Shown here piece by piece: positions 47,621-62,093 of a stretch of DNA of 64,000 bases. The DNA comes from Synechococcus sp. A10-1-5-1. Lineage in GTDB: Bacteria > Cyanobacteriota > Cyanobacteriia > PCC-6307 > Cyanobiaceae. Below the pieces are notes generated by a model. That model was given only the letters and a program-made list of their open reading frames with translations. It was not told the DNA's origin and searched no databases. How positions within the stretch are numbered: the first letter of the stretch is position 1; every line of letters begins with the position of its first letter. Location: the NCBI RefSeq assembly GCF_023115425.1, contig NZ_CP096032.1, positions 62,001-126,000 on the forward strand, read 5' to 3'. The translations under genes were made by a program, and so were the position numbers.

Positions 47621-47796
47621 TTGGCAGCTACCATGCTTTTCGCTGCTTAGACATAGAAATATACATGCATGCTGCAACGAAAAAGTCTTCGCGCTCGATA
47701 AGATCAACCATTTAATCAGATGAGGCCCGAACAAGACAGTTTCTGAGTGTGATGTGGCAAATGCACTAAAACTCAAAGATTTTTAGGTGTCAAAAA
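47621..47796. other. Left junction of the AT-rich island, no gene
   Basis: 176 bases between the DUF2721 stop and the end of the kinase gene. Composition falls from core-like to AT-rich across this gap. Reading it both ways I see no tRNA, no integrase remnant and no convincing direct repeat with the right junction near 61.65 kb. A minus-strand ORF through it (47591-47776) is Ser/Leu-rich without conserved-looking blocks and is not called. Confidence 0.5.
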
Positions 47797-48609
47797 CTAC
47801 ATCCGGTCCTTCCGATCCTCGAGAGAACTGATAAGGCAGGTGATGCGCAGAATATGCTCATCCCTGTTCTCAAAATGCTTGCTTGTATCTAGAAGTCGAC
47901 TTGCTAAGCGTAGTAATCCGAATAAAGTAAAGTAGTAGACATTCTCATGAGCGGATAAATATGAGGTGGGTAGAGGCTTTCCCATGAACGCTGAAACTGC
48001 GACAATCCATCCCAAATCAAAGTAGACCGGAGATATGCCACAATATTCCCAGTCATAAAGCTGAAGCATCATATTATCTCCTTTGATTGTATTCTGAACT
48101 AAATAATCACCGTGGACATATGTCAGGACATCTACTGGGGGTCCGATCTCGATTCTCTCTAGAAAAGGAGCCAAATGTGAATGAAGAGATATGTGCCTTC
48201 TTATATAGGCTTTGAAGTAAAGGTATGGGGAAAAGATCTCCTGATTAGTCTCGGGATTCGAAATGCACGACTGACCCTTAATAGTATTTGCAAGCTCTAG
48301 GGCTGTATGCAAGTAATCGTCAGAAGTTGGCTTCACGCCGAAGAAGCAATCGTGAAAGCCTAAATAAGATGTATTGCTTAGCGGAATAGAAGCGTTGAGC
48401 GTAGGGTACCTGAGGTTACATAATATTTCACTGGTTGAAAAAAAATTGGTGGAAACCAGAAAGGAATGAAACTGTCGACTATCTTTGAAATGCCGACATA
48501 CCTGAAGCTCTTTGATTGCTTCTAATGTCACCAGGCATGAGCTTGCATCCAATGGTGCAAGGTATGACACCTCTGATGTGCCTTGAAAATATGCTTGAAA
48601 GTCAAACAA
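47797..48609 (-). CDS. APH/choline-kinase-fold phosphotransferase
   Basis: A 270-residue kinase-fold protein on the minus strand, starting at TTG 48609. The catalytic loop VHGDYLVQN (His166, Asp168, Asn173) and the DxE metal motif YDWEY (Asp186, Glu188) are those of aminoglycoside/choline phosphotransferases. The N-lobe is short and I cannot see a glycine-rich loop or clear ATP-binding Lys. In thioamitide and class V lanthipeptide clusters, kinases of this fold phosphorylate Ser/Thr of the precursor before elimination; here the only hydroxyl residue of the predicted core is Thr54. A resistance or lipid-kinase role is also possible. Diverges from the COQ4-like gene, 49 bases apart. Confidence 0.8.
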   Translation of the reverse strand: MFDFQAYFQGTSEVSYLAPLDASSCLVTLEAIKELQVCRHFKDSRQFHSFLVSTNFFSTSEILCNLRYPTLNASIPLSNTSYLGFHDCFFGVKPTSDDYLHTALELANTIKGQSCISNPETNQEIFSPYLYFKAYIRRHISLHSHLAPFLERIEIGPPVDVLTYVHGDYLVQNTIKGDNMMLQLYDWEYCGISPVYFDLGWIVAVSAFMGKPLPTSYLSAHENVYYFTLFGLLRLASRLLDTSKHFENRDEHILRITCLISSLEDRKDRM

Positions 48610-48658
48610 GTCAACCTCTCCATATTTGTAAGTAACTACACGACTTTAGGTTCAAATC

Positions 48659-49321
48659 ATGACGATGCTTCAAATCGGTGATTTCTTTAGGGAACAGGAG
48701 ATATTTCCAGAGATACGAAAGCACGCACTGTATCTTATGAGGTCGGGAGATCTTGATCTAAAGCATATTTGGGACTTTATCGCTTCCGATATTCAAGAGC
48801 AATGGAGTCCAATCAAGTACTCAATTCCTGATCTCTTATTCATGGATCAAAACACCCTTGGTTTTCACCTCTGTATTCATCTAATGAATATGGTGCGCGA
48901 CCAAGATGACATCCATGGTGTGCCGGCACCCACCAGATTCCCACTTGAACAGCCGGTCTGCAATGAAAAATACATTGAACTTAGGATTAAGCACACACAT
49001 GACATATTACATGTATTGACCGGTTTTAATACTTCTCCTGTTGGAGAAACAGCACTACAAGCATTCTATGTTGCTCAGTCGCTCTTGCCTCTCTCAGCCC
49101 TCTATTGCTTTAGAGATATAGGAAAACATATTTGCTCTCCTGATGAGGCCTCACATACACAGATGTATGCTCTTGCAGCTGGCTTAGAAGCTGGTTTAAA
49201 GGCTGCTGATTTTTGTGCGTTACGCAGGCTTGAGGAGTTTCTTTCTGAGGACTTAGATCAAGTCAGAAACCAACTCCATATTCACGTGTCAGTGGGCCGT
49301 CCTTGGAGTATTGATCATTAA
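48659..49321 (+). CDS. COQ4-like protein
   Basis: A 220-residue protein with the complete COQ4 zinc-motif signature HDxxHx11E: His114-Asp115-x2-His118-x11-Glu130 in KHTHDILHVLTGFNTSPVGE, followed by a long hydrophobic helix region (ALQAFYVAQSLLPLSALYC). COQ4 in mitochondria organises, and reportedly performs, oxidative decarboxylation/hydroxylation of a ubiquinone precursor; cyanobacteria do not make ubiquinone. As the first gene of the biosynthetic operon, 67 bases before the precursor, it is probably a peptide-tailoring or lipid-handling member of the cluster. AT-rich (18 of 60 bases G/C at 48961-49020). Confidence 0.8.
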   Translation: MTMLQIGDFFREQEIFPEIRKHALYLMRSGDLDLKHIWDFIASDIQEQWSPIKYSIPDLLFMDQNTLGFHLCIHLMNMVRDQDDIHGVPAPTRFPLEQPVCNEKYIELRIKHTHDILHVLTGFNTSPVGETALQAFYVAQSLLPLSALYCFRDIGKHICSPDEASHTQMYALAAGLEAGLKAADFCALRRLEEFLSEDLDQVRNQLHIHVSVGRPWSIDH

Positions 49322-49340
49322 GATATACATCAATTGCTGA

Positions 49341-49378
49341 TGCGTTGCCTGTGCTGGCTATCTTGTAAAAGCAACGCA
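49341..49378 (+). promoter_or_regulatory. 8-bp inverted repeat upstream of the precursor gene
   Basis: TGCGTTGC (49341-49348) and GCAACGCA (49371-49378) are perfect reverse complements with a 22-base spacer. The repeat fills the short gap between the COQ4-like stop and the precursor ATG at 49389 (10 bases from the right arm). It could be an mRNA hairpin that protects the abundant precursor message or regulates its translation, or an operator. No clear Shine-Dalgarno precedes the precursor start. Confidence 0.45.
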
Positions 49379-49388
49379 GACTCTGCAA

Positions 49389-49595
49389 ATGTCAGTTGAA
49401 AAGGCAAATGCTTTCATTGATGCCATCAAAAAGGATGGCCCCTCTCCCCAGTTGATTGACGAGGCCCGCAAGAGCTTCACCAAGGAGCACCTTCACGAAG
49501 CGATCAAAGCTCGAGGTGTCGACCTGAAGCAAGCTGCTGGTGGTGATACTTGTGGGTGGGTTGCAGTCGGAGTTGGCGTGGCTGCTCTGTTCTGA
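49389..49595 (+). CDS. RiPP precursor peptide with Gly-Gly leader end
   Basis: A 68-residue peptide, the likely substrate of the island's enzymes. Residues 1-50 are a helical leader (MSVEKANAFIDAIKKDGPSP ... IKARGVDLKQAA), loosely like Nif11/NHLP-type leaders; Gly51-Gly52 is a typical C39-peptidase cleavage site. The predicted core, residues 53-68, is DTCGWVAVGVGVAALF: one Cys, one Thr, one Trp, otherwise small hydrophobics. Hydrophobic Gly/Ala/Val cores are expected for YcaO-TfuA thioamidated peptides; a Cys next to Gly also recalls trifolitoxin. The gene is far more GC-rich than its neighbours (35 of 60 at 49441-49500). A terminator follows directly. Confidence 0.8.
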   Translation: MSVEKANAFIDAIKKDGPSPQLIDEARKSFTKEHLHEAIKARGVDLKQAAGGDTCGWVAVGVGVAALF

Positions 49596-49610
49596 TTACT
49601 TAAAAAGTAC

Positions 49611-49635
49611 AGGCCCTCATTCGAGGGCTTTTTTT
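49611..49635 (+). terminator. Terminator/attenuator between precursor and ycaO
   Basis: GCCCTC (49613-49618), loop ATTC, GAGGGC (49623-49628), extended by one A-U and one G-U pair, followed by seven T (49629-49635). The T-tract ends directly at the ycaO ATG (49636). The only Shine-Dalgarno-like bases for ycaO (GAGGG, 49623-49627) lie in the 3' arm of this hairpin. So one structure can both stop most transcripts after the precursor and hide the ycaO ribosome-binding site in read-through RNA, setting a high precursor:enzyme ratio. Confidence 0.85.
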
Positions 49636-50814
49636 ATGCTTGAGACGAGGTTATCCGAAACCGATAACGGATTCCTGCATCAGATTCTTTCTATCAAAAA
49701 TCTTTTTGACGTCACTAGAGTCTCGAGTATTTCTGGATTTTCTCGAGAAGATCTAGGTGTTGCGATCGCATATAGACCTAACTCGAAAGTGATGTCTCAG
49801 AGTGCTGGGAAAGGAGTTCACCAGAATCAGGCTTTTATCTCTGCAATAATGGAAAGCTTTGAGTGTCATAGTGCTGAAAATATTGGACCTGATCTTGTCG
49901 CGCCACAGGATCAGTTAGGCACTATGGCGTCTGATCCGAAGCAAATGTCTATAACAACACTTGATTATGACTACTCGTCTAACCAACGTTGGGTCCTATC
50001 CACAGATCTTGTAAACAATCAAAAGGTCTTCATACCATTTGAAAGTGTGAGCCTTGACTTTAGAGAACTCACCGATTCAGGCTGTCGAACACCATTCTAT
50101 CGATCATCAAATGGGTTAGCCTCTGGTGCATCTGAAGATGACGCAATACGGTCTGCTCTCTATGAAATCGTAGAGCGCCATAGCATCACGATCAACGAGT
50201 TAATGCATACCGATAAGAAGAAAAAGGTTGGTGATGAGAGCATTGAGAACTCCGTCTTATCACAGCTGTACCAGAAACTAAAGGCTTACAATACTTCTAT
50301 CAAAGTCGACCTTTACGATAATACAATCTTTGCACAGTTTCCTACATACAAATGTATTCTCTTTTGTGATGACCGAAGGTGGGTGGGCTACGGTACCCAC
50401 TCAAATGGAGTCACTGCCGCTACTCGTGCAATAACGGAGGCAAATCAAGCTCGACTGATTGAGATCTCTGGAGCAAGAGAGGACATGAATAAAGAACTAT
50501 ACCTTTACGGTTATCCAGAGCTGACGAGTACTAACAGAGTTATAGAGGAGGCAGGTCTTCGAAATATCGATGTGAGTACAAGTCTCACCTCGAGAGAGCT
50601 TGTTGATCAATTGAAGACTATTCATCACAAGCCACTTTATTTGTTTCGTTATCCACAGCAAGACGATCACGTTCATGTTGTACGCCTTGTTTCTGAAGGT
50701 CTTCATGGCTACTTGGTACCTGGATATCAGCACATGAGCATTCTTGCTAACAATCTGGTCACACCCACTGCACCTTTCCATATGGATAAACACTCACCGG
50801 CGGCAGGCTTGTGA
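49636..50814 (+). CDS. YcaO-domain enzyme (peptide backbone modification)
   Basis: A 392-residue YcaO protein; the family activates backbone amides with ATP to make azolines, amidines or, with TfuA, thioamides. Recognised by DVTRVSSISGF, SAGKGVHQNQAFISAIMESFECHSAE and SSNGLASGASEDDAIRSALYEIVERHS, the two Glu-rich ATP/Mg helices. The C-terminus (HMDKHSPAAGL) lacks the PxPxP tail seen in azoline-forming YcaOs, and no ThiF/E1-like partner is in the island; instead tfuA overlaps its stop by 4 bases. This supports thioamidation, though it is inference. Longer frame upstream runs through the precursor and is not coding. Sulfur source unknown. Confidence 0.92.
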   Translation: MLETRLSETDNGFLHQILSIKNLFDVTRVSSISGFSREDLGVAIAYRPNSKVMSQSAGKGVHQNQAFISAIMESFECHSAENIGPDLVAPQDQLGTMASDPKQMSITTLDYDYSSNQRWVLSTDLVNNQKVFIPFESVSLDFRELTDSGCRTPFYRSSNGLASGASEDDAIRSALYEIVERHSITINELMHTDKKKKVGDESIENSVLSQLYQKLKAYNTSIKVDLYDNTIFAQFPTYKCILFCDDRRWVGYGTHSNGVTAATRAITEANQARLIEISGAREDMNKELYLYGYPELTSTNRVIEEAGLRNIDVSTSLTSRELVDQLKTIHHKPLYLFRYPQQDDHVHVVRLVSEGLHGYLVPGYQHMSILANNLVTPTAPFHMDKHSPAAGL

Positions 50815-52364
50815 AAACAGTTCTTTATGCAGGCCCAAGCCTCTCCAACGTAGATCAAGAGCTTTTAAGCGGACTTATAGTTCGCGGTCCATGTAAGCAG
50901 GCAGACTTATTTGCTGATATTCATAATGATGAAATCTCATCCATCATTATTGCAGATGGACTATACAAGACTATCCCAGCTCCTTGGCATAAAGAAATAC
51001 TCTTTGCAATCGAGAATAAAAAGCGTGTCATTGGAGTTTCAAGTATTGGTGCTTTACGTGCCGCTGAGCTAAGCGACTTCGGGATGATTGGATTTGGAAA
51101 AGTCTATCAATATTTCTGTAATGATTTAAGAGATGATTCTGATGTCGCTCTTTTGCATCATCCTGAATCTCATGGATGGACTCCGACTACCATGGCATTT
51201 GTTGACTTATTCTTCCATATTCGAGGCTGTGTTGACCGAGGACTTATCGCACAGCATCACCATAATCAAATACTTGAGGATATTCGTGCGTGTAACTTTG
51301 AATACAGAACTCCTCCAGTAGTATCGGCAATTCTCAAAAACTACGTCGGCTCAATCGAGGCAAAAAAAATCCTTCAAGGCTTCTCATCACAGAAGTCACG
51401 TGATCTTTCGGTCTTACTTACCGATAGAAAATATCTTGAGCTCAAATCAAATGTAGCTCCTCAAACATTATCCTGGACGCCATTTGTATCCAGACAACTC
51501 TCCAAGGATATACCAATCAGTCTTTCCTTAAATCAAAAGGATCACGCAAATACAATCAGTAATTTCACGAGCTTCTGCTTTTTACGTTATCCTGAGGAAA
51601 TGAACCTTATTTACCAGTCAGTCTGGGCAGAAATGTTAATGACTGACTCCAATCGTATCGAGGCTAATCATGATCCATCTATTGGACTCTCGCGAAACAA
51701 GCTGACTAGATCGAATTCGATTCCATACGTGGTAGACCAATACAATAATAGCAGTCAAAACCAAATCAGCATTTATAAAAATGATCAGATATCATGTTGC
51801 GATGGGTTGTTAAAAATTAAAGACTTCTTTGAGAAGAACTCGAGCAGTTCATATGACTTCAGTCGGACAGTCTTGTCTGATGAGTTTAACCACGCATACA
51901 AGACTTGGCTCAAGAGTACAACAAAACTCAGCGACGACACTCAGATTCATCTGTCAGAACTTAAGCATGAATGTACTAATTACATTCTATCAATGCTTAT
52001 AGCCGATGATACTCTTGATGTCCAACAGGTTTTAGGCGCATACAAGGTTACAGAGTTCTTTAGTCTGGTTATCCCCTATAGAGATCAGGCAAGACTCCTC
52101 CTATCTCACCGATTACGAGACTCAAAGGATATTAAGCAATGGCTTAACGACTGGGAAATGCTTCTTCAAGGATGTGATGACTTTCTACCTCATTCGCTCT
52201 ACCAAAGCATGTTGTCGCAAGCTGAGATCATGTCCGCGGCCAAGAAGATCAACGAATGTGCCTCTAAGTACCTCTTCCCTATACGCAGTCAAGATGACTA
52301 TCTTAAGTTCTATTATCTTGACTTGTGGCAACTTATCAATATTGCCTGCAAAGCCTTGCCTTGA
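50811..52364 (+). CDS. TfuA-family protein with long C-terminal extension
   Basis: A 517-residue protein from GTG 50811. Residues ~1-125 are the TfuA domain: YAGPSLSNVDQELLSG, IIIADGLYKTIPAPWHKEILFAI and RVIGVSSIGALRAAELSDFGMIGFGKVYQYF (the ASSMGALRAAEL signature). TfuA partners YcaO in trifolitoxin biosynthesis, in thioviridamide-type thioamidation and in methyl-coenzyme-M reductase thioglycine formation, delivering sulfur. The remaining ~390 residues are AT-rich-encoded, helical, Ser/Asn-rich and unrecognised; ordinary TfuA proteins are about 200-450 residues. Translationally coupled to ycaO (GTGA). Confidence 0.9.
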   Translation: MKTVLYAGPSLSNVDQELLSGLIVRGPCKQADLFADIHNDEISSIIIADGLYKTIPAPWHKEILFAIENKKRVIGVSSIGALRAAELSDFGMIGFGKVYQYFCNDLRDDSDVALLHHPESHGWTPTTMAFVDLFFHIRGCVDRGLIAQHHHNQILEDIRACNFEYRTPPVVSAILKNYVGSIEAKKILQGFSSQKSRDLSVLLTDRKYLELKSNVAPQTLSWTPFVSRQLSKDIPISLSLNQKDHANTISNFTSFCFLRYPEEMNLIYQSVWAEMLMTDSNRIEANHDPSIGLSRNKLTRSNSIPYVVDQYNNSSQNQISIYKNDQISCCDGLLKIKDFFEKNSSSSYDFSRTVLSDEFNHAYKTWLKSTTKLSDDTQIHLSELKHECTNYILSMLIADDTLDVQQVLGAYKVTEFFSLVIPYRDQARLLLSHRLRDSKDIKQWLNDWEMLLQGCDDFLPHSLYQSMLSQAEIMSAAKKINECASKYLFPIRSQDDYLKFYYLDLWQLINIACKALP

Positions 52365-52369
52365 GTTTA

Positions 52370-53755
52370 ATGCACCATATCCGAATCATAGACTTAAAAG
52401 AAGCCGCGAGTAAGACGGCGATTGTATTTAATAAGTATCTTCTCAAGACGCTCACGCTTTCAGGGGATACAACTGAATCTTATGCTTATCGGTCAAGAGA
52501 CTCTATTTGTGACTATCTAACTGTGGTCTCCCAAAAGCATGGACATCTATGCCTCTGGCCCTCAATGTTTTGCTCAGAAATATGGCAGATTCTTCTTGAA
52601 CTAAGGGAAGAGACTACTCTTGACTTTGAAATCAGGCTCTATATTAACTCATATATTGGATACCAAGATAGGATTGCTGGCTTTATACGGGGATCATCTA
52701 GTTGCGATAAAATCTTTTTCAATGGCCAGTTTACATATGACCTAGTCAAACGATTTGGCCCTTCATCTAAGACTATAAATGCAATCATCAAGCCAGTCAG
52801 TATTTCTATTCCGTCGTCTGCCTCCCAACAGAAACGTGAAGGAATCGCGATAATTACACGTCTGAGCTCTTTCAAAAGAACAATTGACGCCATTTCTGGT
52901 TTATCAACAGTCGATAGCTACAGTAATATTACCCTCTGTGTTTTCTCCCCATCGACCGAAGCTGAGAGTCAAATACGTGATCTCATACAGGAGAAGGCAG
53001 ACGAATCTAGAGTCGTAATTGATTGGAGATACAACCTTAACTCATCTGAGGTCTCTGAAGTTCTCTCCCAATCAGTATTCTGCCTGATCTTTTCAACCAG
53101 CTACGAGGAAACGCAGGGAAAGATTATCATTGAAGCTGCAGCAGCCGGATGCTTACCAATTGTCAATAACTGGAACGGTCTCCCAGAACATATTGACCCA
53201 GAATTTGTAGTGCCTACATCCTGGAGTATTCAGGATGGTCCGTACGTTTGTGACTCTAATGTGAGGGACGTGCTCATTAAACTGCAGGCTAAGCTGGAAG
53301 TTGAGCCGCACTACATCTCTAGGGAATGTTTGCGTATCTATAACAAGTATTTAGCTCAATGCAACAACACTAGCTTTATCGCTATTACTTGTAGGCAAGA
53401 GTCCTTTAGTTACCAGTCTATTCTCAGCCAATACACACATTCAAAACTCTGTCTAGATGTGCCTAGCCTTTCAGACTGCATCTCTACGCAGGATCCATAC
53501 CTCTATCTCGCCTCACGTAAACGGTACATAGCCGCAAACCCCGAGCCAGTTGATCTTCATCTTTCGGACTTTACTTGGATCTCTAACTGCCAGTTTAATG
53601 ACCGATGTATTTATCTTTTAAACGAGCTCATCGATGAGTGCTCTGATGGAAGCCTGAAATCATATGACTACAACGAGATTATCGCGCTACTCGCAAGAAA
53701 AAAAGTATTCGAGAACTATTCTTTAATATTATCCCTTCTTGTTCAACTTGAATAG
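52370..53755 (+). CDS. GT-B-fold glycosyltransferase (group 1/GT4-like)
   Basis: About 461 residues, starting ATG 52370 five bases after the tfuA stop. The C-terminal nucleotide-sugar domain is recognisable: IAIITRLSSFKRTIDAISGL, VIDWRYNLNSSEVSEVL and the EX7E motif in EETQGKIIIEAAAAGCLPIV, followed by WNGLPEHI. The N-terminal acceptor domain and the last ~110 residues are not recognised. It could glycosylate the modified peptide or a cell-surface component. RiPP glycosylation would be expected on Thr54, Cys55 or Trp57 of the core; this is speculation. Last gene of the biosynthetic operon; no terminator seen before the convergent ABC gene. Confidence 0.8.
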   Translation: MHHIRIIDLKEAASKTAIVFNKYLLKTLTLSGDTTESYAYRSRDSICDYLTVVSQKHGHLCLWPSMFCSEIWQILLELREETTLDFEIRLYINSYIGYQDRIAGFIRGSSSCDKIFFNGQFTYDLVKRFGPSSKTINAIIKPVSISIPSSASQQKREGIAIITRLSSFKRTIDAISGLSTVDSYSNITLCVFSPSTEAESQIRDLIQEKADESRVVIDWRYNLNSSEVSEVLSQSVFCLIFSTSYEETQGKIIIEAAAAGCLPIVNNWNGLPEHIDPEFVVPTSWSIQDGPYVCDSNVRDVLIKLQAKLEVEPHYISRECLRIYNKYLAQCNNTSFIAITCRQESFSYQSILSQYTHSKLCLDVPSLSDCISTQDPYLYLASRKRYIAANPEPVDLHLSDFTWISNCQFNDRCIYLLNELIDECSDGSLKSYDYNEIIALLARKKVFENYSLILSLLVQLE

Positions 53756-53800
53756 ACTGATAAAATATGAAGCCACGACTACGTCTGTTTGTCTAAAATA

Positions 53801-56500
53801 TTATAGTTTGTATTGCTTATCAAAGCATTCGACTATTGATGCGTCTGATGTGGTCGCAAGAATACTAGATCCATTCTTTTTGAAGTAGCTGATTATCTTT
53901 CTTACTTCCTCACGGTCCGAGCCTGTAAGAATATCATCAATGAAAATATACCTCGACTTTCGTAAGGCTGCGCGCACAAGAAATATCCTCTTCTTATAAA
54001 CATCTGGTACAGTACTGGCGTGAGGGGATATGATCGTTCCAAGCTTTAACGGTAGAGAACCGATGAATTCATCCAGGCTAAAGTCCTTCAGACATTGATC
54101 AACTTCGCCTTGGCCAACATCAATTCCATGGCATATGTTATCGAAGATAGTGCCTTGCCTTACTTGCAAGTTTTGGGGGACATTGCCTAGAAAAGAACGG
54201 TATATCCTTGGTGAAATTGTCTTTAAGTCATGGCCTGACACAATTATATTCCCAGAATAACTCTCATGAAGCCCAGAAAGAACTTCTAGTAGAGTCGTCT
54301 TACCGCTACGAGGCTCTCCAACAATTACAGCAGCTTCTCCAGAGTTAAGCTCCAACGTAACACCACTCAGTATCAAGCGCTTATTCGAATCGGCTCCACG
54401 GTAACCGAAAGTTAGTTCACTTGCTCTAAGTGATCCATTAAATACTGAAGGAGTCTTCTCAATATTGCCTGGTTCTGATGGTAGCGATACGACTTCCATC
54501 GCCCTTGACCAGTAGACACTTAATCGCACGAAAGAAGTAATCGATTTATCGATTGCTGACTCAAAGCTTGCAAGAAATGTCTGTGTACATGTCAGAAAAC
54601 TCACAACGCCACCCACAGTTAATACTTCTTTTGCAGTTCCTGCGTGAGCAAGATGATAGGCATACGGAAGTAAGAATATGTAGAGAATATATGTCGTTGT
54701 CCCAGACAACGTGTCAACCCTGTTGCGTACCCTTACAGCCCCAAAAACCGCGTCCAAAAGCGGCGAGATGACCTCACTGAACCTCAGGAGTAGATGTCGC
54801 GTTGTACCCGCTGCCCTAGCAGCCGCCACACCGCTGATTGAATCATTTGTTGTTTCCAATAACTTCCCATCTAACTCTGTAAGCTCCCTAAAGTATTTTA
54901 AGCGTTGAAATGCCCCAATTAATGTTGCTATTCCTAGAACCAGACCACTACACATCACGATCAGCGACAACTGCCAAGAATAAATAAATAGATAAACAAA
55001 GTTAAAGATGACCGAGAGAAATGCCGTCAAGATAGGCGTCAAATTTGAGGTTATAGTTGAACGCAAATCAGATATTCCCATTATTCTATTCTGGAGGCTT
55101 CCAGGAGAGTACAGCGAGACCTCGTCAAGCTTTACCCTTAAGAATCTATCCACAATCATTGTCTGTAGATTCGAGTCTGTAACCACTTCAAATCTCACCA
55201 GATATCGAGCCTGCAGGAGCTGGATAATATATACAAGAGAAAGGGCGAGAACAGCCGATGCACCAAAGAACAATAATGAGTAGTAATCCCCGAATGGTAT
55301 GTATAGAGATGTAAGCTGTGTGACAAGAACAGCAGGAATTAAGGTCGCCGCAGACAACACTAATGAGATTAATAGAACAGAAAGAAAAGCACCAACAGTG
55401 TCTCTAAGTCCATATCTTGCAAAGTCCCAGGCGTTACCATTTTCAGGAAACTTTGGATAAATAGTCAGTATCTGCCCTGAGACGTGATGCTCGCTGTCTT
55501 TACAATAATCTGACCCCTTAGTTGTTAAAATCTTGTACCCTAGTCTGTAGCGTACGTACGCGGATACACCTCCATCATCAGAAAGGAACAAGTAACTTCT
55601 ATTATCACTGACGATTTCAGGGGCCACTGAAATCCTATATGAAACACTTGATACATTAAGTAGCCTTAGCAGTGCGTCCTGCTCACTCTTGCAATTGGAT
55701 AAGTTTACTGATGTATATAGCCTAGTCGCCCGCGACTCTCTTCTGATAATTAGACCTGCGCAGAACAGCACATTTTCGAATTTTCCTCCTGAACGCTCTA
55801 TGTTCTCTGCTGAACTATTGTGTCCTAAGTACTCTTCGAAATTCTCGACAGAGGCGTTATAAGCACGCACTTCAGATTCTGCGAGGATTCTTTCCCTTCG
55901 TTGAATCCTATTGTCTAACAGTCTATGCAGATGACTCACGGTTTCGAGTAACCGCATAACTGAGTCATCTTCACAGCGTGTCAATAGACTGAATTTTGCA
56001 TCACCATAAATTGTAAATGACTCATTCTTCGGAACCAATATCTTAACTTGATTATCTACACCGCTGCCCTTGTCATCAAAAGAATGAACTCCATCTTTGC
56101 ATTCAACAATAGCTATTTCTGAGCTACTATTAAGGAAGAATCCGCTCTCTAGATCCTCAGGCTTTGTTATAAGACCACTTCTACTAACCGACTGATCATG
56201 TGCCGATAGTCCGAGTAAGGATAACCTGGTATTTAAATAGATATTCTCGAGCGCTCGACTGAGCAGTTCTGTATCGTCAGCTGGATCTACGCAGTGCCTC
56301 AGTAGTGCATCAGCCTTCGACTCCTCGTTGATTCCAAAGGGTACTAAATCAACGGTCGCCTCTCCACGTAGCTTCTTCCAGAAGTCTGAGTCAGTTTTTC
56401 CTGGTCTTATATCGAATAGATGAATTCCCTCAAGTAATTCACCGTGAGCCAACTCGTAGCTTATGTAGACCCTTGCATATGTAGACTGAGTTGTTGTCAT
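53801..56500 (-). CDS. Bacteriocin-export ABC protein (NHLM ABC2-like) with degenerate ATPase motifs
   Basis: An 899-residue ABC protein: residues ~1-370 form a soluble N-terminal region, about six TMs span ~385-690, and an ATP-binding domain ends it. This N-domain/TM/NBD layout is that of the NHLM-type second ABC protein. Walker A is intact (GEPRSGKT, 728-735). The signature reads VPDVY where LSGGQ should be; Walker B is IFIDD with Asp856 in place of catalytic Glu; the switch His is Thr884. ATP may be bound but hydrolysis is doubtful. Starts 2 bases after the C39-ABC stop. Confidence 0.85.
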   Translation of the reverse strand: MTTTQSTYARVYISYELAHGELLEGIHLFDIRPGKTDSDFWKKLRGEATVDLVPFGINEESKADALLRHCVDPADDTELLSRALENIYLNTRLSLLGLSAHDQSVSRSGLITKPEDLESGFFLNSSSEIAIVECKDGVHSFDDKGSGVDNQVKILVPKNESFTIYGDAKFSLLTRCEDDSVMRLLETVSHLHRLLDNRIQRRERILAESEVRAYNASVENFEEYLGHNSSAENIERSGGKFENVLFCAGLIIRRESRATRLYTSVNLSNCKSEQDALLRLLNVSSVSYRISVAPEIVSDNRSYLFLSDDGGVSAYVRYRLGYKILTTKGSDYCKDSEHHVSGQILTIYPKFPENGNAWDFARYGLRDTVGAFLSVLLISLVLSAATLIPAVLVTQLTSLYIPFGDYYSLLFFGASAVLALSLVYIIQLLQARYLVRFEVVTDSNLQTMIVDRFLRVKLDEVSLYSPGSLQNRIMGISDLRSTITSNLTPILTAFLSVIFNFVYLFIYSWQLSLIVMCSGLVLGIATLIGAFQRLKYFRELTELDGKLLETTNDSISGVAAARAAGTTRHLLLRFSEVISPLLDAVFGAVRVRNRVDTLSGTTTYILYIFLLPYAYHLAHAGTAKEVLTVGGVVSFLTCTQTFLASFESAIDKSITSFVRLSVYWSRAMEVVSLPSEPGNIEKTPSVFNGSLRASELTFGYRGADSNKRLILSGVTLELNSGEAAVIVGEPRSGKTTLLEVLSGLHESYSGNIIVSGHDLKTISPRIYRSFLGNVPQNLQVRQGTIFDNICHGIDVGQGEVDQCLKDFSLDEFIGSLPLKLGTIISPHASTVPDVYKKRIFLVRAALRKSRYIFIDDILTGSDREEVRKIISYFKKNGSSILATTSDASIVECFDKQYKL

Positions 56501-56501
56501 C

Positions 56502-58685
56502 TCAATTCCTCCTAATTGCCTGATTGGCTTGCTTCTTCAGTATTTCTGTTGATAGCTCTTGCGGATTCGTTTCAACAAGCTGCCCTTCCGACTTAAGGAC
56601 AAATGAGCGGTTTGCCAGCTCTATGTATTCGGGGCTATTAGATACAAAAATGACTATCGGTACGAAACGTGTAATCTTAATTAGTGCCTCTAACCCATAC
56701 TCCCCAAGTGATTCCAGACCGCTATCAATCAAAACGATTCTCGGATTCTTGGATAATGCCCTGCTCAATCCAATTATTATCTTATCAGTATTACTGACTG
56801 GTATTGAGGGCCCAAGTCTAGAACTTAATCCATTTGGTAGCGACTTTGTAAGATCATTAAAACCATATAGATTTAGGGTCGCCGTGACCTCCCTCTGTGA
56901 CACTTGAGGGTCAAATACGCCTACATTCTCTACAAGACCTGCAGCAAAGAGATAGCTGTTAGATGTCACAAAAGACATTGTATATCCAAGTACATCAGGT
57001 GGTATCTCACCTATCTCTTTACCACAAACATGTACATCTCCTGACGTAGGCTTTAATAGACCGATCAGAAGATTCAAGAGCGTTGTCTTTCCGATACCTG
57101 GATTTCCAGATAGAGATACGACGTCTCCGGAATTCAACTTGAAGCTCAGCCCATCTATGACAGGATCAGCCGATGACGTGTATCTGTAGCCAAGGCCGTT
57201 TACTTTTAGCGTTGGTGATAGATCTAGTTTGAGCTTTCCGGGCTGCTTCAGATCAATGATGCCACTTGAGTTGTCATCAGTTGCATCATATTCTCCAACA
57301 CTATAATATTCTTGCTCACCCCAGAGATCGTTCAGTCTATTTACATCACCTACAGCATTCTCGAACTGTTGGTTTGTACCGGACAATGTCCCAACAGGCT
57401 TTAAGAAAGCAAGGGCGATCAACCGAAAGCTAATAAACTCACCCAGACTTAGTTTGCCCATCATGATAAATAAGCCGGATAAAATAACTATTAGATAATC
57501 TGCCAGTTGGTTCGTGAATGTCGTCGTACAAGCATTGCGCTTCTGCACATAAGAGATCTTTTCGCTTACAGACTGATATTGACTGAAATTATCTGACCAA
57601 CGTTGAAATAACGATAACTCAAGGCCATTCGCTTTCACTGAGTGGAAATCATTGGCCATCGTTAGTATATTTGATGTCATCTTGCCTTTCATCAAGGAGC
57701 TCTTCTGAGACAGAACTCTTAAGCTCTCGGCTAATCTGTACAACAAGTACGAGTTTCCTACTCCAATCGCTATAACGACCGCACCGAGTATTAAGTTGTA
57801 GCTCAGCATGATCAGCCCATAGATCACCATTGTGATTATTCCCACCACCGATGACGCCAGTGGCCCAGACAACGTGTTTGCTAAGGAGATATTCAAGGTG
57901 TTTCTTTGACTCACCTCCCCGAGGTCTCTTAGTGCATAGAAGGTAACAGGCATATCCAATAACTTCTTGGTTGTCTTTTCTAGAAGCCTTGACAACGTCG
58001 AAAGTTGAAACCGCCTAAGTATAAGCTGCTCTATGTACTTGCCCGTAAAATAGATACCAACAAGGAGAGCGAGTAGCCAAATGTAGCTATTCGACGCATC
58101 AACTTCTGACAGTATTGTATCGGTGAAATATCCTATATATGAACTTAGAGCAATTATCGGAATCGTAAGTACAGTCGCTATGGCGCAATAAAGCAATAAA
58201 GCGTATCTCTGATCCTTGACTAACTCTGCTATCTCAATAATGTTATTTGGCTTTTTACCACTCGGACAGAAATCCTTGCCAGGCTTTGCACTGATCGCTA
58301 GTCCGGAATATTCCTTAGTGAATTCTTCTGGTGTTGCTTTACGATAACCTTTTGCCGGATCACTGATCAGAAACTGATGGCCATCATATCTCTCTAATAC
58401 AACCCAATGATCCTTGTTTATCCATGTAATACATGGGAGGCCACAAGTTGGTTGGTTACTCTTTAGTTCATCTACGGAAGCTTCGTAGCCATCTGATTCA
58501 AAGCCCCTACGTTTGAGTGCTTGAACGATGTTATACGCATTTGATCCATCTTTTGTGATATTGACGTCATTTCTGCACGTCTCCGTACTAAGCCAATTAT
58601 TGTAGTATCCATTGATTATCCAATAAGATACAGCTCCACATTCAATTGCTTCAATCTGAATCTTTGATGGTGTTTTAAACTTCAT
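56502..58685 (-). CDS. Peptidase-containing ABC exporter (C39, NHLM ABC1-like) with degenerate signature
   Basis: A 727-residue leader-cutting exporter. The N-terminal C39 peptidase has TPSKIQIEAIECGAVSYW and an intact triad: Cys16, His93 (KDHWVVLERYDG) and Asp109 (SDPAKG), with Gln10 as oxyanion residue, so it should cleave after the precursor's Gly51-Gly52. Six TMs follow. The NBD keeps Walker A (GNPGIGKT, 527-534), but the signature is VSNTD (canonical LSGGQ), Walker B Glu is Ser655, and the H-loop His is Asn683. Overlaps the HlyD stop by 4 bases (ATGA). AT-rich. Confidence 0.9.
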   Translation of the reverse strand: MKFKTPSKIQIEAIECGAVSYWIINGYYNNWLSTETCRNDVNITKDGSNAYNIVQALKRRGFESDGYEASVDELKSNQPTCGLPCITWINKDHWVVLERYDGHQFLISDPAKGYRKATPEEFTKEYSGLAISAKPGKDFCPSGKKPNNIIEIAELVKDQRYALLLYCAIATVLTIPIIALSSYIGYFTDTILSEVDASNSYIWLLALLVGIYFTGKYIEQLILRRFQLSTLSRLLEKTTKKLLDMPVTFYALRDLGEVSQRNTLNISLANTLSGPLASSVVGIITMVIYGLIMLSYNLILGAVVIAIGVGNSYLLYRLAESLRVLSQKSSLMKGKMTSNILTMANDFHSVKANGLELSLFQRWSDNFSQYQSVSEKISYVQKRNACTTTFTNQLADYLIVILSGLFIMMGKLSLGEFISFRLIALAFLKPVGTLSGTNQQFENAVGDVNRLNDLWGEQEYYSVGEYDATDDNSSGIIDLKQPGKLKLDLSPTLKVNGLGYRYTSSADPVIDGLSFKLNSGDVVSLSGNPGIGKTTLLNLLIGLLKPTSGDVHVCGKEIGEIPPDVLGYTMSFVTSNSYLFAAGLVENVGVFDPQVSQREVTATLNLYGFNDLTKSLPNGLSSRLGPSIPVSNTDKIIIGLSRALSKNPRIVLIDSGLESLGEYGLEALIKITRFVPIVIFVSNSPEYIELANRSFVLKSEGQLVETNPQELSTEILKKQANQAIRRN

Positions 58686-59896
58686 CCGTCTATCCCAAAG
58701 AACTTCTTCGTTGCTGGAATGCCAATCGTGATAGGTGGCACCCTCTTTGTAATCACTGAGACATCAGCGAGCAGGCCTATGCGTGGAAAGAGCGCAGGAT
58801 TATTCGACGGCGGTCCAGAGCCATTGATCCATTTGTACCCTGTATGACTACGTCCATTAGGTACAAGACCTATGATTACCTGTATTGTTTTATTGGCATC
58901 CACTAGGCTATCTGCCAGTGCAATCGAACCAAGCAATCCTGATGCTTCATTCTTAGTGACTGGAAGAACTGATACCTCTCGGACCCGGCCAAGAATGAAT
59001 CCATAGGTATTCGGCAGGATATTGGATGGTAAAACATGTACCTCCTGTCCTTTTTTCAGCTTTGCAGCCTGCAGTGGTGAGAAGTATGCAATTACTTCTA
59101 GAGGATTCGCCGCATTCCAGGACTCTTTACCTTTCCCGCTCAGTATCTCCATCTGAAGCAATGCACCACTTGGTTCATTCTTCTGGCCAATATTTGCGAA
59201 TACATTCAGGACTTTACCCGGATAGTCAGTCTTGATATCCGACGCAACTGTTCTTGTAGCACGAGCTGCTTCGAGCTCTGCTTTTAGCTTCGCCAGATTT
59301 GCGTCAGAACGGATAACCTCATCTTCACTATTTAGCAAGTCCTGAATTGCACTCTCGTACGACTGCTTGGCACTCCTTACAGTTGTCTTTGAGATTACCC
59401 CGGACTTCTGTAACTCTACTGCTGCTTGAAGGTAATCTTCTGACGATCGAATTGATTCTTTCTGTTGGGCTAGTAGTCCCACATATGAGTTCGAACTGTA
59501 TTGTCTTTTGTGCTCAGCCTCGGCAATCTTTAAGTCATTGAGTGCAGATTGAACCTTCTCATCTTGTGCTGCATAACGCACTCTAGCTACTATTTCACCT
59601 TTCTTTACTACCGATCCGGGCTTGACAAATATTTCTGTGATGACACCCCCCTCATATCCTGACTGAGATACTGTTGCTAATTTAAATGGTTTGGAAATCA
59701 AACCCTCACCACTGACCTTTTCTGGTATTCTTCCAAGTAATGCCCATCCCAAGACGCCGCTGCATGCGGCAATTGACAGCGCAGCCCAATATTTGATAGG
59801 GGTAACTACAATACTTACTGTACCACTGTATTTTAATGGATCAACAACTTTAGCCCTTTTGTCTTCTTGTTTACTGCTGCTTTCGCGGTCGGGCAC
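58682..59896 (-). CDS. HlyD-like membrane-fusion protein of the peptide exporter
   Basis: A 404-residue periplasmic adaptor linking the ABC proteins to an outer-membrane channel. A short cytoplasmic region (Ser/Lys-rich, ~30 residues) is followed by one TM (YWAALSIAACSGVLGWALLG), a lipoyl half-motif (GGVITEIFVKPGSVVKKGEIVARV), an alpha-helical hairpin of ~130 residues (ALNDLKIAEAEHKRQYSSN ... AELEAARAT), the second lipoyl half (PGKVLNVFANIGQKNEPSG) and a beta-barrel domain. Pattern is that of NHLM bacteriocin secretion proteins. First gene of the export operon, facing tolC. Confidence 0.92.
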   Translation of the reverse strand: MPDRESSSKQEDKRAKVVDPLKYSGTVSIVVTPIKYWAALSIAACSGVLGWALLGRIPEKVSGEGLISKPFKLATVSQSGYEGGVITEIFVKPGSVVKKGEIVARVRYAAQDEKVQSALNDLKIAEAEHKRQYSSNSYVGLLAQQKESIRSSEDYLQAAVELQKSGVISKTTVRSAKQSYESAIQDLLNSEDEVIRSDANLAKLKAELEAARATRTVASDIKTDYPGKVLNVFANIGQKNEPSGALLQMEILSGKGKESWNAANPLEVIAYFSPLQAAKLKKGQEVHVLPSNILPNTYGFILGRVREVSVLPVTKNEASGLLGSIALADSLVDANKTIQVIIGLVPNGRSHTGYKWINGSGPPSNNPALFPRIGLLADVSVITKRVPPITIGIPATKKFFGIDG

Positions 59897-60014
59897 GTCA
59901 AATCTTTTCTACATCTTTAAAAAATAAGTTGCCCGTCTTTCTGTGTCACCCTTTCCGTTACCATTTGTTGTGTTCTTTTGTGCTAGGTTCCGTTTGACTG
60001 CGTGTAGTGTTGGT
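59897..60014. promoter_or_regulatory. Divergent intergenic between hlyD and tolC-like genes
   Basis: 118 bases that must carry the promoters of both the export operon and tolC. It is strongly AT/pyrimidine-rich on the plus strand. I find no pair of -35/-10 boxes good enough to assign. No inverted repeat of note. It is the only place in the export half where both transcripts could be co-regulated. Confidence 0.4.
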
Positions 60015-61646
60015 ATGCGACATGTTCTCTTCGCAATCCTTCCTCTGATTATTCCTTCTTCGTCTCTGGCATTTCAACTCCCAGACCCCTCTTTATCTGC
60101 TATCCCAGCTTCCTCCGAAGTCAATCAGCTTCTTTGTCTGGATCGGCGTCATCCCTCTGTTGCCAAGGCCCTTCGTCTTCTCGATCAACCCGAATACTGT
60201 TCTACTGCAACCTTCTACAACTTTCTTGACTACCGTGACGGCGATGTTTCTATTGACAATCTCCAGGATGTTCTGGATCTTACGAAGCAGTCTCCAGCAG
60301 TCATATCTGCTGATTTTTCTTACCTAGCTTCCAAGGATCAGCAGGCTTCATTCTTCATCCAGGCCTTTGCCCCTACATTCTCGATCTCTTCCGGCAGCTG
60401 GTCTAGCATTTATTCGAACAGTTCTACCTTGACCAAGCCTACGCCAGCTTCTGGTCAGCCATCAATCACGCAACGCTATTCCAACTCGTCTGCCCAGGAG
60501 TATTCTTCCTCGCTGAGTCCAACGATCAGTGTCCCCCTTTTTGATCCATACTCTATAAACCTTGCATTCTACTATCGTAACTTATCTTTCTCAACCGCTT
60601 ATTCGTCCTCTTCCTCCGACCTGTCTCAGTTTTCCAATGCACTGACTAGCTCGGTTGATCTATGGACTGCAAAGAATGGAATCCTGATTGCCCAGAAGAA
60701 CGTCTCATCTGCTTTGACCTCCTTCCTCTCGACATACGCTCAGTACGAGTTGGGAGCTCTTGCTATACCGGATGTCGCTCAGTCCCTGAACGTTTTGCGC
60801 CAATATCAAAATAATCTTTCTAGCTCTATTGAAAGCTTTAACACCTACTATGCTCAATTAGCCGCCAACGCTGGCGTGCCCTTTGGCAAGCTTAAGCTTT
60901 CGCCTTCGTTCTTTTCTGTCCAAACTGTCTCCAAGCTGGCGTCTTTCCCGTACGGAGACCTTGCGAGCTTGTCGCGTCAAAGCCTGGTCTTCTCTGACCA
61001 GATCTATGTTGACTACTACAACTTCAAGTCTTTTCAGAGTCAGTCGCGCAGCTATCTGTCCGAGTACTTGCCATCGTTCGGTCTGTCGTTTGGCTGGTCG
61101 CCATCCTCTACGTATTCTTATAATACTGCCGGTCTCGCGCAGTATAGTGGCGACCCCATTATAAACACTTACAGTCAGACGTCCAATTCGACGTGGGGGA
61201 ATTCCCTGGCTATAACCTTCACTTGGGACTTCTTTGACTCAGGGGCAAATGCGTATTTGGCATCGTCTTCAAAGAAGAATGCTATTGCTTCTCGTGAATC
61301 TGCAAAACAGGCTGCTCTGACGGTTCTTCAGACCGCATCGTCTAATTACAGTCTATTTCACAACTCTTCAAACCAGGTCGCAGCTTCTCTGCAGTCCATT
61401 GATTTCTCGAGGCGCGCTTACGATGACACCCTTGTTGCCCTTCGTGCTGGATTCTCTAATGTCACGACCCTGTTTCAGAGGTTAACTGAGTATTCATCTG
61501 CTTTGACCTCATGGAATAATCAGCTTCGGACTCTGTTGGCTTCATCCGTTACTCTCCAATATCTCTCTAGGGACGGTTACTTTGAGGGTATTCGTCCATA
61601 CCAGCTTGTCTATGGCGACTACATCCTGGACTTTATTGATTACTAG
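60015..61646 (+). CDS. TolC-like outer-membrane efflux protein, Ser-rich
   Basis: A 543-residue protein from ATG 60015 with a signal peptide (MRHVLFAILPLIIPSSSLAF). Despite strong divergence the layout is that of TolC-family channels: long helical segments (SVDLWTAKNGILIAQKNVSSALTSFLSTYAQYELG and AKQAALTVLQTASSNYSLFHNSSNQ) alternating with beta-rich stretches (SLSPTISVPLFDPYSINL, GNSLAITFTWDFFDSG), and an ending ...YGDYILDFIDY. The gene is extreme in Ser codons and C/T-ending codons, giving a pyrimidine-rich coding strand unlike its island neighbours. It would complete the exporter across the outer membrane. Confidence 0.8.
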   Translation: MRHVLFAILPLIIPSSSLAFQLPDPSLSAIPASSEVNQLLCLDRRHPSVAKALRLLDQPEYCSTATFYNFLDYRDGDVSIDNLQDVLDLTKQSPAVISADFSYLASKDQQASFFIQAFAPTFSISSGSWSSIYSNSSTLTKPTPASGQPSITQRYSNSSAQEYSSSLSPTISVPLFDPYSINLAFYYRNLSFSTAYSSSSSDLSQFSNALTSSVDLWTAKNGILIAQKNVSSALTSFLSTYAQYELGALAIPDVAQSLNVLRQYQNNLSSSIESFNTYYAQLAANAGVPFGKLKLSPSFFSVQTVSKLASFPYGDLASLSRQSLVFSDQIYVDYYNFKSFQSQSRSYLSEYLPSFGLSFGWSPSSTYSYNTAGLAQYSGDPIINTYSQTSNSTWGNSLAITFTWDFFDSGANAYLASSSKKNAIASRESAKQAALTVLQTASSNYSLFHNSSNQVAASLQSIDFSRRAYDDTLVALRAGFSNVTTLFQRLTEYSSALTSWNNQLRTLLASSVTLQYLSRDGYFEGIRPYQLVYGDYILDFIDY

Positions 61647-61670
61647 ACGCAGTTCTAGCTTGCTTGCTCT

Positions 61671-62093
61671 CTAGTTGACTTTGTCGGCTTGTCGGCAGCT
61701 GCAGAGTTCATCCAGGTCAGGCCGACCGGTCAGGGCCAAGCGCCATTGGGCCCAGAGGCCATAGGCCCAATCCGCTAACGGTCCGATGACGGGCCAGGCT
61801 GTCGGGGCGTACAACCAGCCCAGTCCGATCAGTCGATAGGCCTCGCGGAAGACTGCGACATCCTTCAGGACGGTTCCGTCCCCCTGAATGGCGTGGATGC
61901 GGCCCATGGCCTCCCGGTAGCTGATCCCTTCGTGTTGCTCTGGCCTGTAGCTGGTGTCGTTGATGTCGACAAACGCGATCAGAGCTGAGCTGGGGTGCAG
62001 CCGCTGATCCCGCTGGCGCAGGAATTTCACTTCCCGCAGACAGAGCGGACAGCCGCCGTCGTAGAGGAGCGTGAGGGACGCCGTCGTGGCCAT
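61671..62093 (-). CDS. DCC-family thiol-disulfide oxidoreductase (DUF393)
   Basis: A 140-residue protein with the DCC signature LLYDGGCPLCLREVKFL: Asp plus CxxC at the end of the first strand, as in thioredoxin-like DCC proteins. The rest (GRIHAIQGDGTVLKDVAVFREAYRLIGLGWLYAPTAWP) fits the family, including the FxxLY-like end segments. No membrane span. The function of the family is not established beyond the thiol motif. It is the first core-like gene to the right of the island, transcribed towards tolC; no terminator was noted in the 24-base gap. Confidence 0.9.
   Translation of the reverse strand: MATTASLTLLYDGGCPLCLREVKFLRQRDQRLHPSSALIAFVDINDTSYRPEQHEGISYREAMGRIHAIQGDGTVLKDVAVFREAYRLIGLGWLYAPTAWPVIGPLADWAYGLWAQWRLALTGRPDLDELCSCRQADKVN

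Follow-up and report, generated by a model that had tools for sequence, protein, structure and literature searches.

Thioamitides such as thioviridamide are encoded in clusters in which a YcaO-TfuA pair is joined by a gene for an APH-like kinase, and we know of no Coq4 gene in any of these clusters. Nif11-leader YcaO-TfuA clusters, whose RiPP products are putatively thioamidated, are described from cyanobacteria and other organisms and transporters and a glycosyltransferase are known from among them (PMC8120280). Within the mostly non-subscription literature searched, a single RiPP paper names Coq4, and it does so in a figure legend only, where a Coq4 gene is drawn inside the Nif11-precursor synechococsin cluster of Synechococcus MITS9509 (PMC10783134). 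By its published description, that cluster features a polyketide-synthase-type domain and no YcaO-TfuA pair is mentioned, unlike the locus presented here. COQ4 itself is recognized by the metal motif HD-xx-H-(x)11-E (PMC7615680; PMC9774615), and accounts of the reaction it catalyses differ: in vitro it was reported to be a decarboxylase that depends on Zn (PMC7615680), and a review names it an oxidative decarboxylase (PMC11495197). A scaffolding role as organiser of the synthome has been proposed as well, and a solved homologue holds oleic acid and Mg (PMC9774615).

The locus lies in a 64-kb stretch of picocyanobacterial DNA, called the window below. It is an acquired island that contains a complete peptide cassette (Table 1). 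The Nif11/YcaO/TfuA cassette type is known, while its combination with a Coq4-family protein has no second case so far. As in the described Nif11-leader clusters, a Nif11-like precursor is followed by YcaO and TfuA, an order that is also found in one further genome (G467, L252), and in the island this arrangement is extended by two genes, one for the Coq4-family protein and one for an APH-like kinase. The kinase gene is shared with the thioamitide clusters, from which the island differs by its Nif11-like leader, its C39 export system and the lack of a recognised lyase partner for the kinase, as neither HopA1-type nor any other lyase families were matched among the ten cassette proteins in Pfam.

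Table 1. Features of the acquired island, in window coordinates
Feature	Position	Strand	Evidence and remarks
Acquired island with the whole cassette	47630..61693	none	GC shift; adjoining flanks in same-genus genomes; junction sequences
APH/choline-kinase-like phosphotransferase	47797..48609	-	Weak Pfam APH match, 24.4 bits (cut-off 23.2); weak PDB match 8agy
Coq4-family protein	48659..49321	+	220 aa; ATG start; metal motif H114-D115-x2-H118-x11-E130
Nif11-like RiPP precursor	49389..49595	+	68 aa; GG cleavage motif; predicted core DTCGWVAVGVGVAALF
Intrinsic-terminator-like hairpin in the precursor/ycaO gap	49611..49636	+	Terminator scan; folding z-score -3.3
YcaO, nearest to the McrA-glycine thioamidation type	49636..50814	+	392 aa; Pfam YcaO 141 bits; PDB 6pe3 (MJ1094)
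TfuA	50811..52364	+	517 aa; Pfam TfuA 105 bits; PDB 6xp8
Group-1 glycosyltransferase-like protein	52325..53755	+	Pfam Glycos_transf_1 20.4 bits (below cut-off 26.4)
NHLP-type ABC transporter permease/ATPase	53801..56500	-	TIGR03797 227.6 bits (below cut-off 709)
C39-peptidase ABC exporter	56502..58685	-	Expected cut after GG; Pfam Peptidase_C39 83 bits; TIGR03796 379.9 bits (below cut-off 853)
HlyD-type periplasmic adaptor of NHLP systems	58682..59896	-	TIGR03794 146.8 bits (cut-off 156.2)
TolC-like outer-membrane factor	59943..61646	+	Pfam OEP 72.6 bits

Pfam matched the Coq4-family protein to Coq4 (PF05019) alone, at 46.5 bits (gathering score 22.9; 3.7e-12; residues 102-209), and no NCBIfam model matched it. 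The metal motif named in the original prediction proved exact, since alignments confirm H114, D115, H118 and E130 at their positions and the spacing equals that of the published motif. All 12 columns that are invariant across a 61-sequence Coq4 alignment are kept. Searching the PDB with a profile of the Coq4 alignment returned only the two solved structures of the family, 3msq (Nostoc punctiforme) and 6e12 (Alr8543 of Nostoc PCC 7120). The same two were the only significant Foldseek matches (E ~1e-6 and ~1e-5; TM 0.59-0.66) to an AlphaFold model generated from the 61-sequence alignment (mean pLDDT 81.4, pTM 0.78), in which the all-helical Coq4 fold is predicted. Based on the Pfam score, the published motif, the invariant columns and the model matches, the family assignment is secure and far beyond chance. 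The worry that the HDxxH motif might belong to an unrelated family found no support, as profile search and fold both gave Coq4 only.

While the island protein shares its fold, the HDxxH-x11-E motif and all family-invariant residues with the described members (human and yeast COQ4, Alr8543 in 6e12, 3msq), it differs from them by its location in a peptide cassette and by its strong divergence. In aligned columns, its identity to any relative in the tree does not exceed about 30 %, and its terminal branch measures 3.16 against a median of 0.17 without a supported sister, although the placement of so long a branch is unsure. Of the 35 columns kept in at least 90 % of the other Coq4 members, it breaks 11, whereas those members break 1.2 on average and 8 at most, a contrast that is somewhat inflated by picking the comparison set by similarity. 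Both near-invariant tryptophans in the C-terminal part (columns 195 and 202) are lost, while the metal ligands are kept. Close relatives were found neither in GTDB genomes nor in IMG/VR, plasmids or phages in a single-sequence scan; the plasmid matches turned out to be ordinary Coq4 proteins of Nostoc and Gloeothece. Divergence of this extent is as expected for a protein with a changed substrate.

The quinone of cyanobacteria is plastoquinone, not ubiquinone, and the original prediction regarded a Coq4 protein as out of place in such an organism. This view has to be corrected, as 119 of the 251 genomes of the host's family (Cyanobiaceae) carry at least one Coq4, some of them as many as six, and Nostoc is the source of both solved structures. 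Synechococcus elongatus, included as a control, also gave a match. The host genome encodes two further copies (at 458750 and 1694431), and a third paralogue, missing from the host, is present in the same-genus genomes G021, G013 and G012. One copy is common in the genus and sits among housekeeping genes unrelated to it, e.g. for L,D-transpeptidase, starch/glycogen synthase and Mur ligase (L049). No role for cyanobacterial Coq4 was found in the literature searched. Genome G370 is worth mentioning for its six Coq4 matches, two of which are only about 3 kb apart (L129:5964-10376).

The island spans about 14 kb, has sharp borders and stands out by its base composition, with a GC content of ~0.38-0.49 inside and ~0.58-0.67 outside (overall ~43 % versus ~63 %), falling at 47.6 kb and recovering past 61.6 kb. 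Among ten same-genus genomes with loci reaching both sides, the left and right flanks adjoin directly in nine; the left-flank match ends at 47.54-47.63 kb of the window (47.13 kb where shorter) and the right one begins at ~61.69 kb. In the tenth genome (G012), the right-flank match starts further in, at 62.38 kb. In G021 and G013, the junction of the flanks falls at about 47627-47629 and 61693. The 7-bp repeat GGCAGCT occurs at both edges (47623-47629 and 61694-61700) and possibly represents microhomology or a target duplication. Neither integrase nor transposase families were matched among the ten island proteins, no tRNA was found within the window, and plasmids yielded nothing related at the DNA level to the island's first 7.4 kb. 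The cassette was thus horizontally acquired as a whole, and its insertion site is unbroken in relatives.

The GC3 value of the island coq4 (0.389) is that of YcaO (0.397), TfuA (0.396) and most other cassette genes (0.392-0.435), and not that of the host genome's own two Coq4 genes (0.819 and 0.833), which is why we conclude that coq4 arrived together with the cassette. An origin from the third paralogue was considered and dropped, because the base composition is foreign and the tree contains no supported sister. The island borders, the empty site in relatives and the common base composition thereby establish the physical link between coq4 and the YcaO/TfuA cassette.

The gene content suggests that the cassette is built to supply a modified, exported small peptide. 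The leader of the precursor scores 17.0 bits against NCBIfam leader_Nif11 and 14.2 bits against Pfam Nif11, aligned from residue 1 and containing GG; as both scores are under the curated cut-offs, its Nif11 label relies on pattern, position and context together. The predicted core DTCGWVAVGVGVAALF has Phe as its last residue and is strongly hydrophobic, with a GRAVY of +1.56; its calculated mass after GG cleavage is 1563.776 Da when unmodified. Convincing relatives of the precursor were found neither in 299 genomes of the order nor on plasmids. The YcaO and TfuA genes are adjacent and overlap, and the NCBIfam matches of both proteins are McrA-glycine thioamidation models, under the equivalog cut-offs (127.5 bits against a cut-off of 365 for YcaO with TIGR03266). 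By analogy with these families, the peptide is probably thioamidated, for which we calculate a mass shift of +15.977 Da per thioamide. The TfuA protein has a C-terminal extension of ~300 residues (window 51400-52364) that matches no known domain or family; among the other cyanobacterial TfuA ORFs, two measure 224 aa and the rest are long as well (433-558 aa). For the glycosyltransferase-like ORF, the real start may be located 3' of 52325. Judging by their profile scores, the exporter proteins appear as clear relatives of NHLP-type C39 export systems, below equivalog cut-offs. The APH-like gene is divergent from coq4, and its translation contains the HGDxxxxN and DWE motifs; it could encode a tailoring kinase as in the thioamitides or serve self-protection.

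Coq4 had been described as the first gene of a RiPP operon. This description is reasonable inasmuch as coq4 lies on the strand of the precursor and ends 67 bp 5' of it. Against it speaks the hairpin that follows the precursor, and no convincing promoter was located. The hairpin was called in a scan whose overall site count was no higher than in shuffles; its position between precursor and ycaO would favour synthesis of extra precursor.

To see how widespread the association is, the flanks of 80 named GTDB loci and of ~70 loci from relatives, overlapping and amounting to ~130 distinct Coq4 loci, were scanned with profiles built for YcaO, TfuA, C39, HlyD and Nif11. Neither YcaO nor TfuA was found near any of these ~130 other Coq4 loci within flanks of up to ~10 kb, many of them on short contigs. 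TfuA is rare in itself, with 7 of 296 relatives and 7 of 386 phylum genomes in overlapping sets, and Coq4 was absent from all nine of the further cyanobacterial TfuA loci that were read; two of the nine are on very short contigs, and the genome of one of these (G044) contains no Coq4 anywhere. Thioamidation therefore does not need Coq4. The predicted link between Coq4 and peptide clusters accordingly holds at the island locus, by virtue of its borders, empty site and base composition, but not as a general rule, as there is no second case.

Several of the other cyanobacterial TfuA loci have a Nif11-like precursor beside YcaO-TfuA, and in G467 (L252:246-5420) the Nif11 precursor, YcaO and TfuA genes are followed in a row by one for a 678-aa protein that has no Pfam match. 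The nearness of Coq4 and Nif11 ORFs (~4.2 kb) in several same-genus genomes was not counted as a link, because it looks like one orthologous locus and the host genome alone has 13 Nif11 matches. Coq4 genes near C39 or HlyD in G047 (L047) and G218 (L128, ~9 kb) were judged to be loose associations.

On balance, we lean towards the island Coq4 being a recruited, fast-evolving part of the acquired cassette that acts on its peptide, either as scaffold or carrier or by catalysis. From what is known of the respective families, YcaO and TfuA would introduce thioamides into the backbone of the core, which is short and hydrophobic, the C39 exporter would cleave after GG, and HlyD and TolC would carry the product out. 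The most likely role of Coq4 would be to hold the greasy core peptide in its hydrophobic helical groove, the lipid site in relatives, for which a hydrophobic core ending in Phe is well suited. In doing so, Coq4 might scaffold the maturation enzymes, or its metal site might remove or replace a carboxylate, with the C-terminal Phe carboxyl as the best candidate. A role on the peptide is weakened by being a single case that none of the ~130 Coq4 and nine TfuA loci shares, and by a core devoid of an aromatic p-hydroxy-carboxylate, the known type of COQ4 substrate. Moreover, a lipid-binding or self-protection function would leave an identical genomic trace. If a role on the peptide is true, Coq4 would be tied to one small, defined peptide in a self-contained cassette, providing a tractable system for the chemistry of this fold, and an enzyme class could be added to peptide tailoring. 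More broadly, the locus suggests that Coq4-type proteins can be recruited for building peptides.

Taken by itself, a purely structural contribution is possible but leans towards the unlikely side: Coq4 may assemble the maturation enzymes or shield the hydrophobic peptide in the absence of any chemistry, similar to the proposed role of COQ4 in the synthome. Scaffolding is proposed for its relatives, which also bind lipid (PMC9774615), and the hydrophobicity of the core fits such a function. The metal motif, however, is fully retained in a fast-evolving protein, which suggests a site that still matters, although a structural metal would also explain this.

We are more doubtful about catalysis by analogy with COQ4, in which Coq4 would decarboxylate the peptide, perhaps oxidatively and most likely at the C-terminal Phe, with a shift of -28 (COOH to OH), -44 or -46 Da. 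All four metal-motif residues are kept and decarboxylase activity of COQ4 is published (PMC7615680; PMC11495197), but the known substrate is a prenylated hydroxybenzoate, which has no counterpart here, the two tryptophans are lost and the literature is divided between plain and oxidative decarboxylation. Should the published oxidative reaction apply to the peptide, a shift of -27.995 Da is expected, and the original prediction, with its -44/-46, missed this value; the exact figures for the latter two are -43.990 and -46.005 Da. It seems rather unlikely to us that this metalloprotein is a RiPP-tailoring enzyme that uses its metal to decarboxylate a thioamidated peptide, possibly oxidatively, or to carry out some other carboxylate-directed reaction on it; were it so, it would represent a new class of RiPP enzyme and the first peptide substrate for Coq4.

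No better prospects are seen for a Coq4 whose target is a lipid or prenyl compound of the cell instead of the peptide, be it to protect the producer or to provide the product with a lipid. Many members of the host family have Coq4 paralogues, which stand in varied housekeeping contexts, solved relatives bind lipids, and the cassette shows no obvious immunity gene other than the exporter and, perhaps, the kinase, yet Pfam found neither a prenyl- nor an acyltransferase in it, and coq4 is placed directly 5' of the precursor. Least probable is a passenger gene that merely happened to enter the donor cassette and plays no part in the peptide pathway, which would fit the lack of a second Coq4-YcaO/TfuA case but sits poorly with the motif residues kept through a long divergence, with the compact placement of coq4 heading the precursor unit and with all other island genes suiting peptide making, export or, for the kinase, plausible tailoring.

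A different Coq4 in genome G074 (L146:4381-12074) adjoins a Rieske oxygenase, with HPr-kinase-like, sulfotransferase and PqqD genes 3-6 kb away, and is a possible second peptide-linked Coq4.
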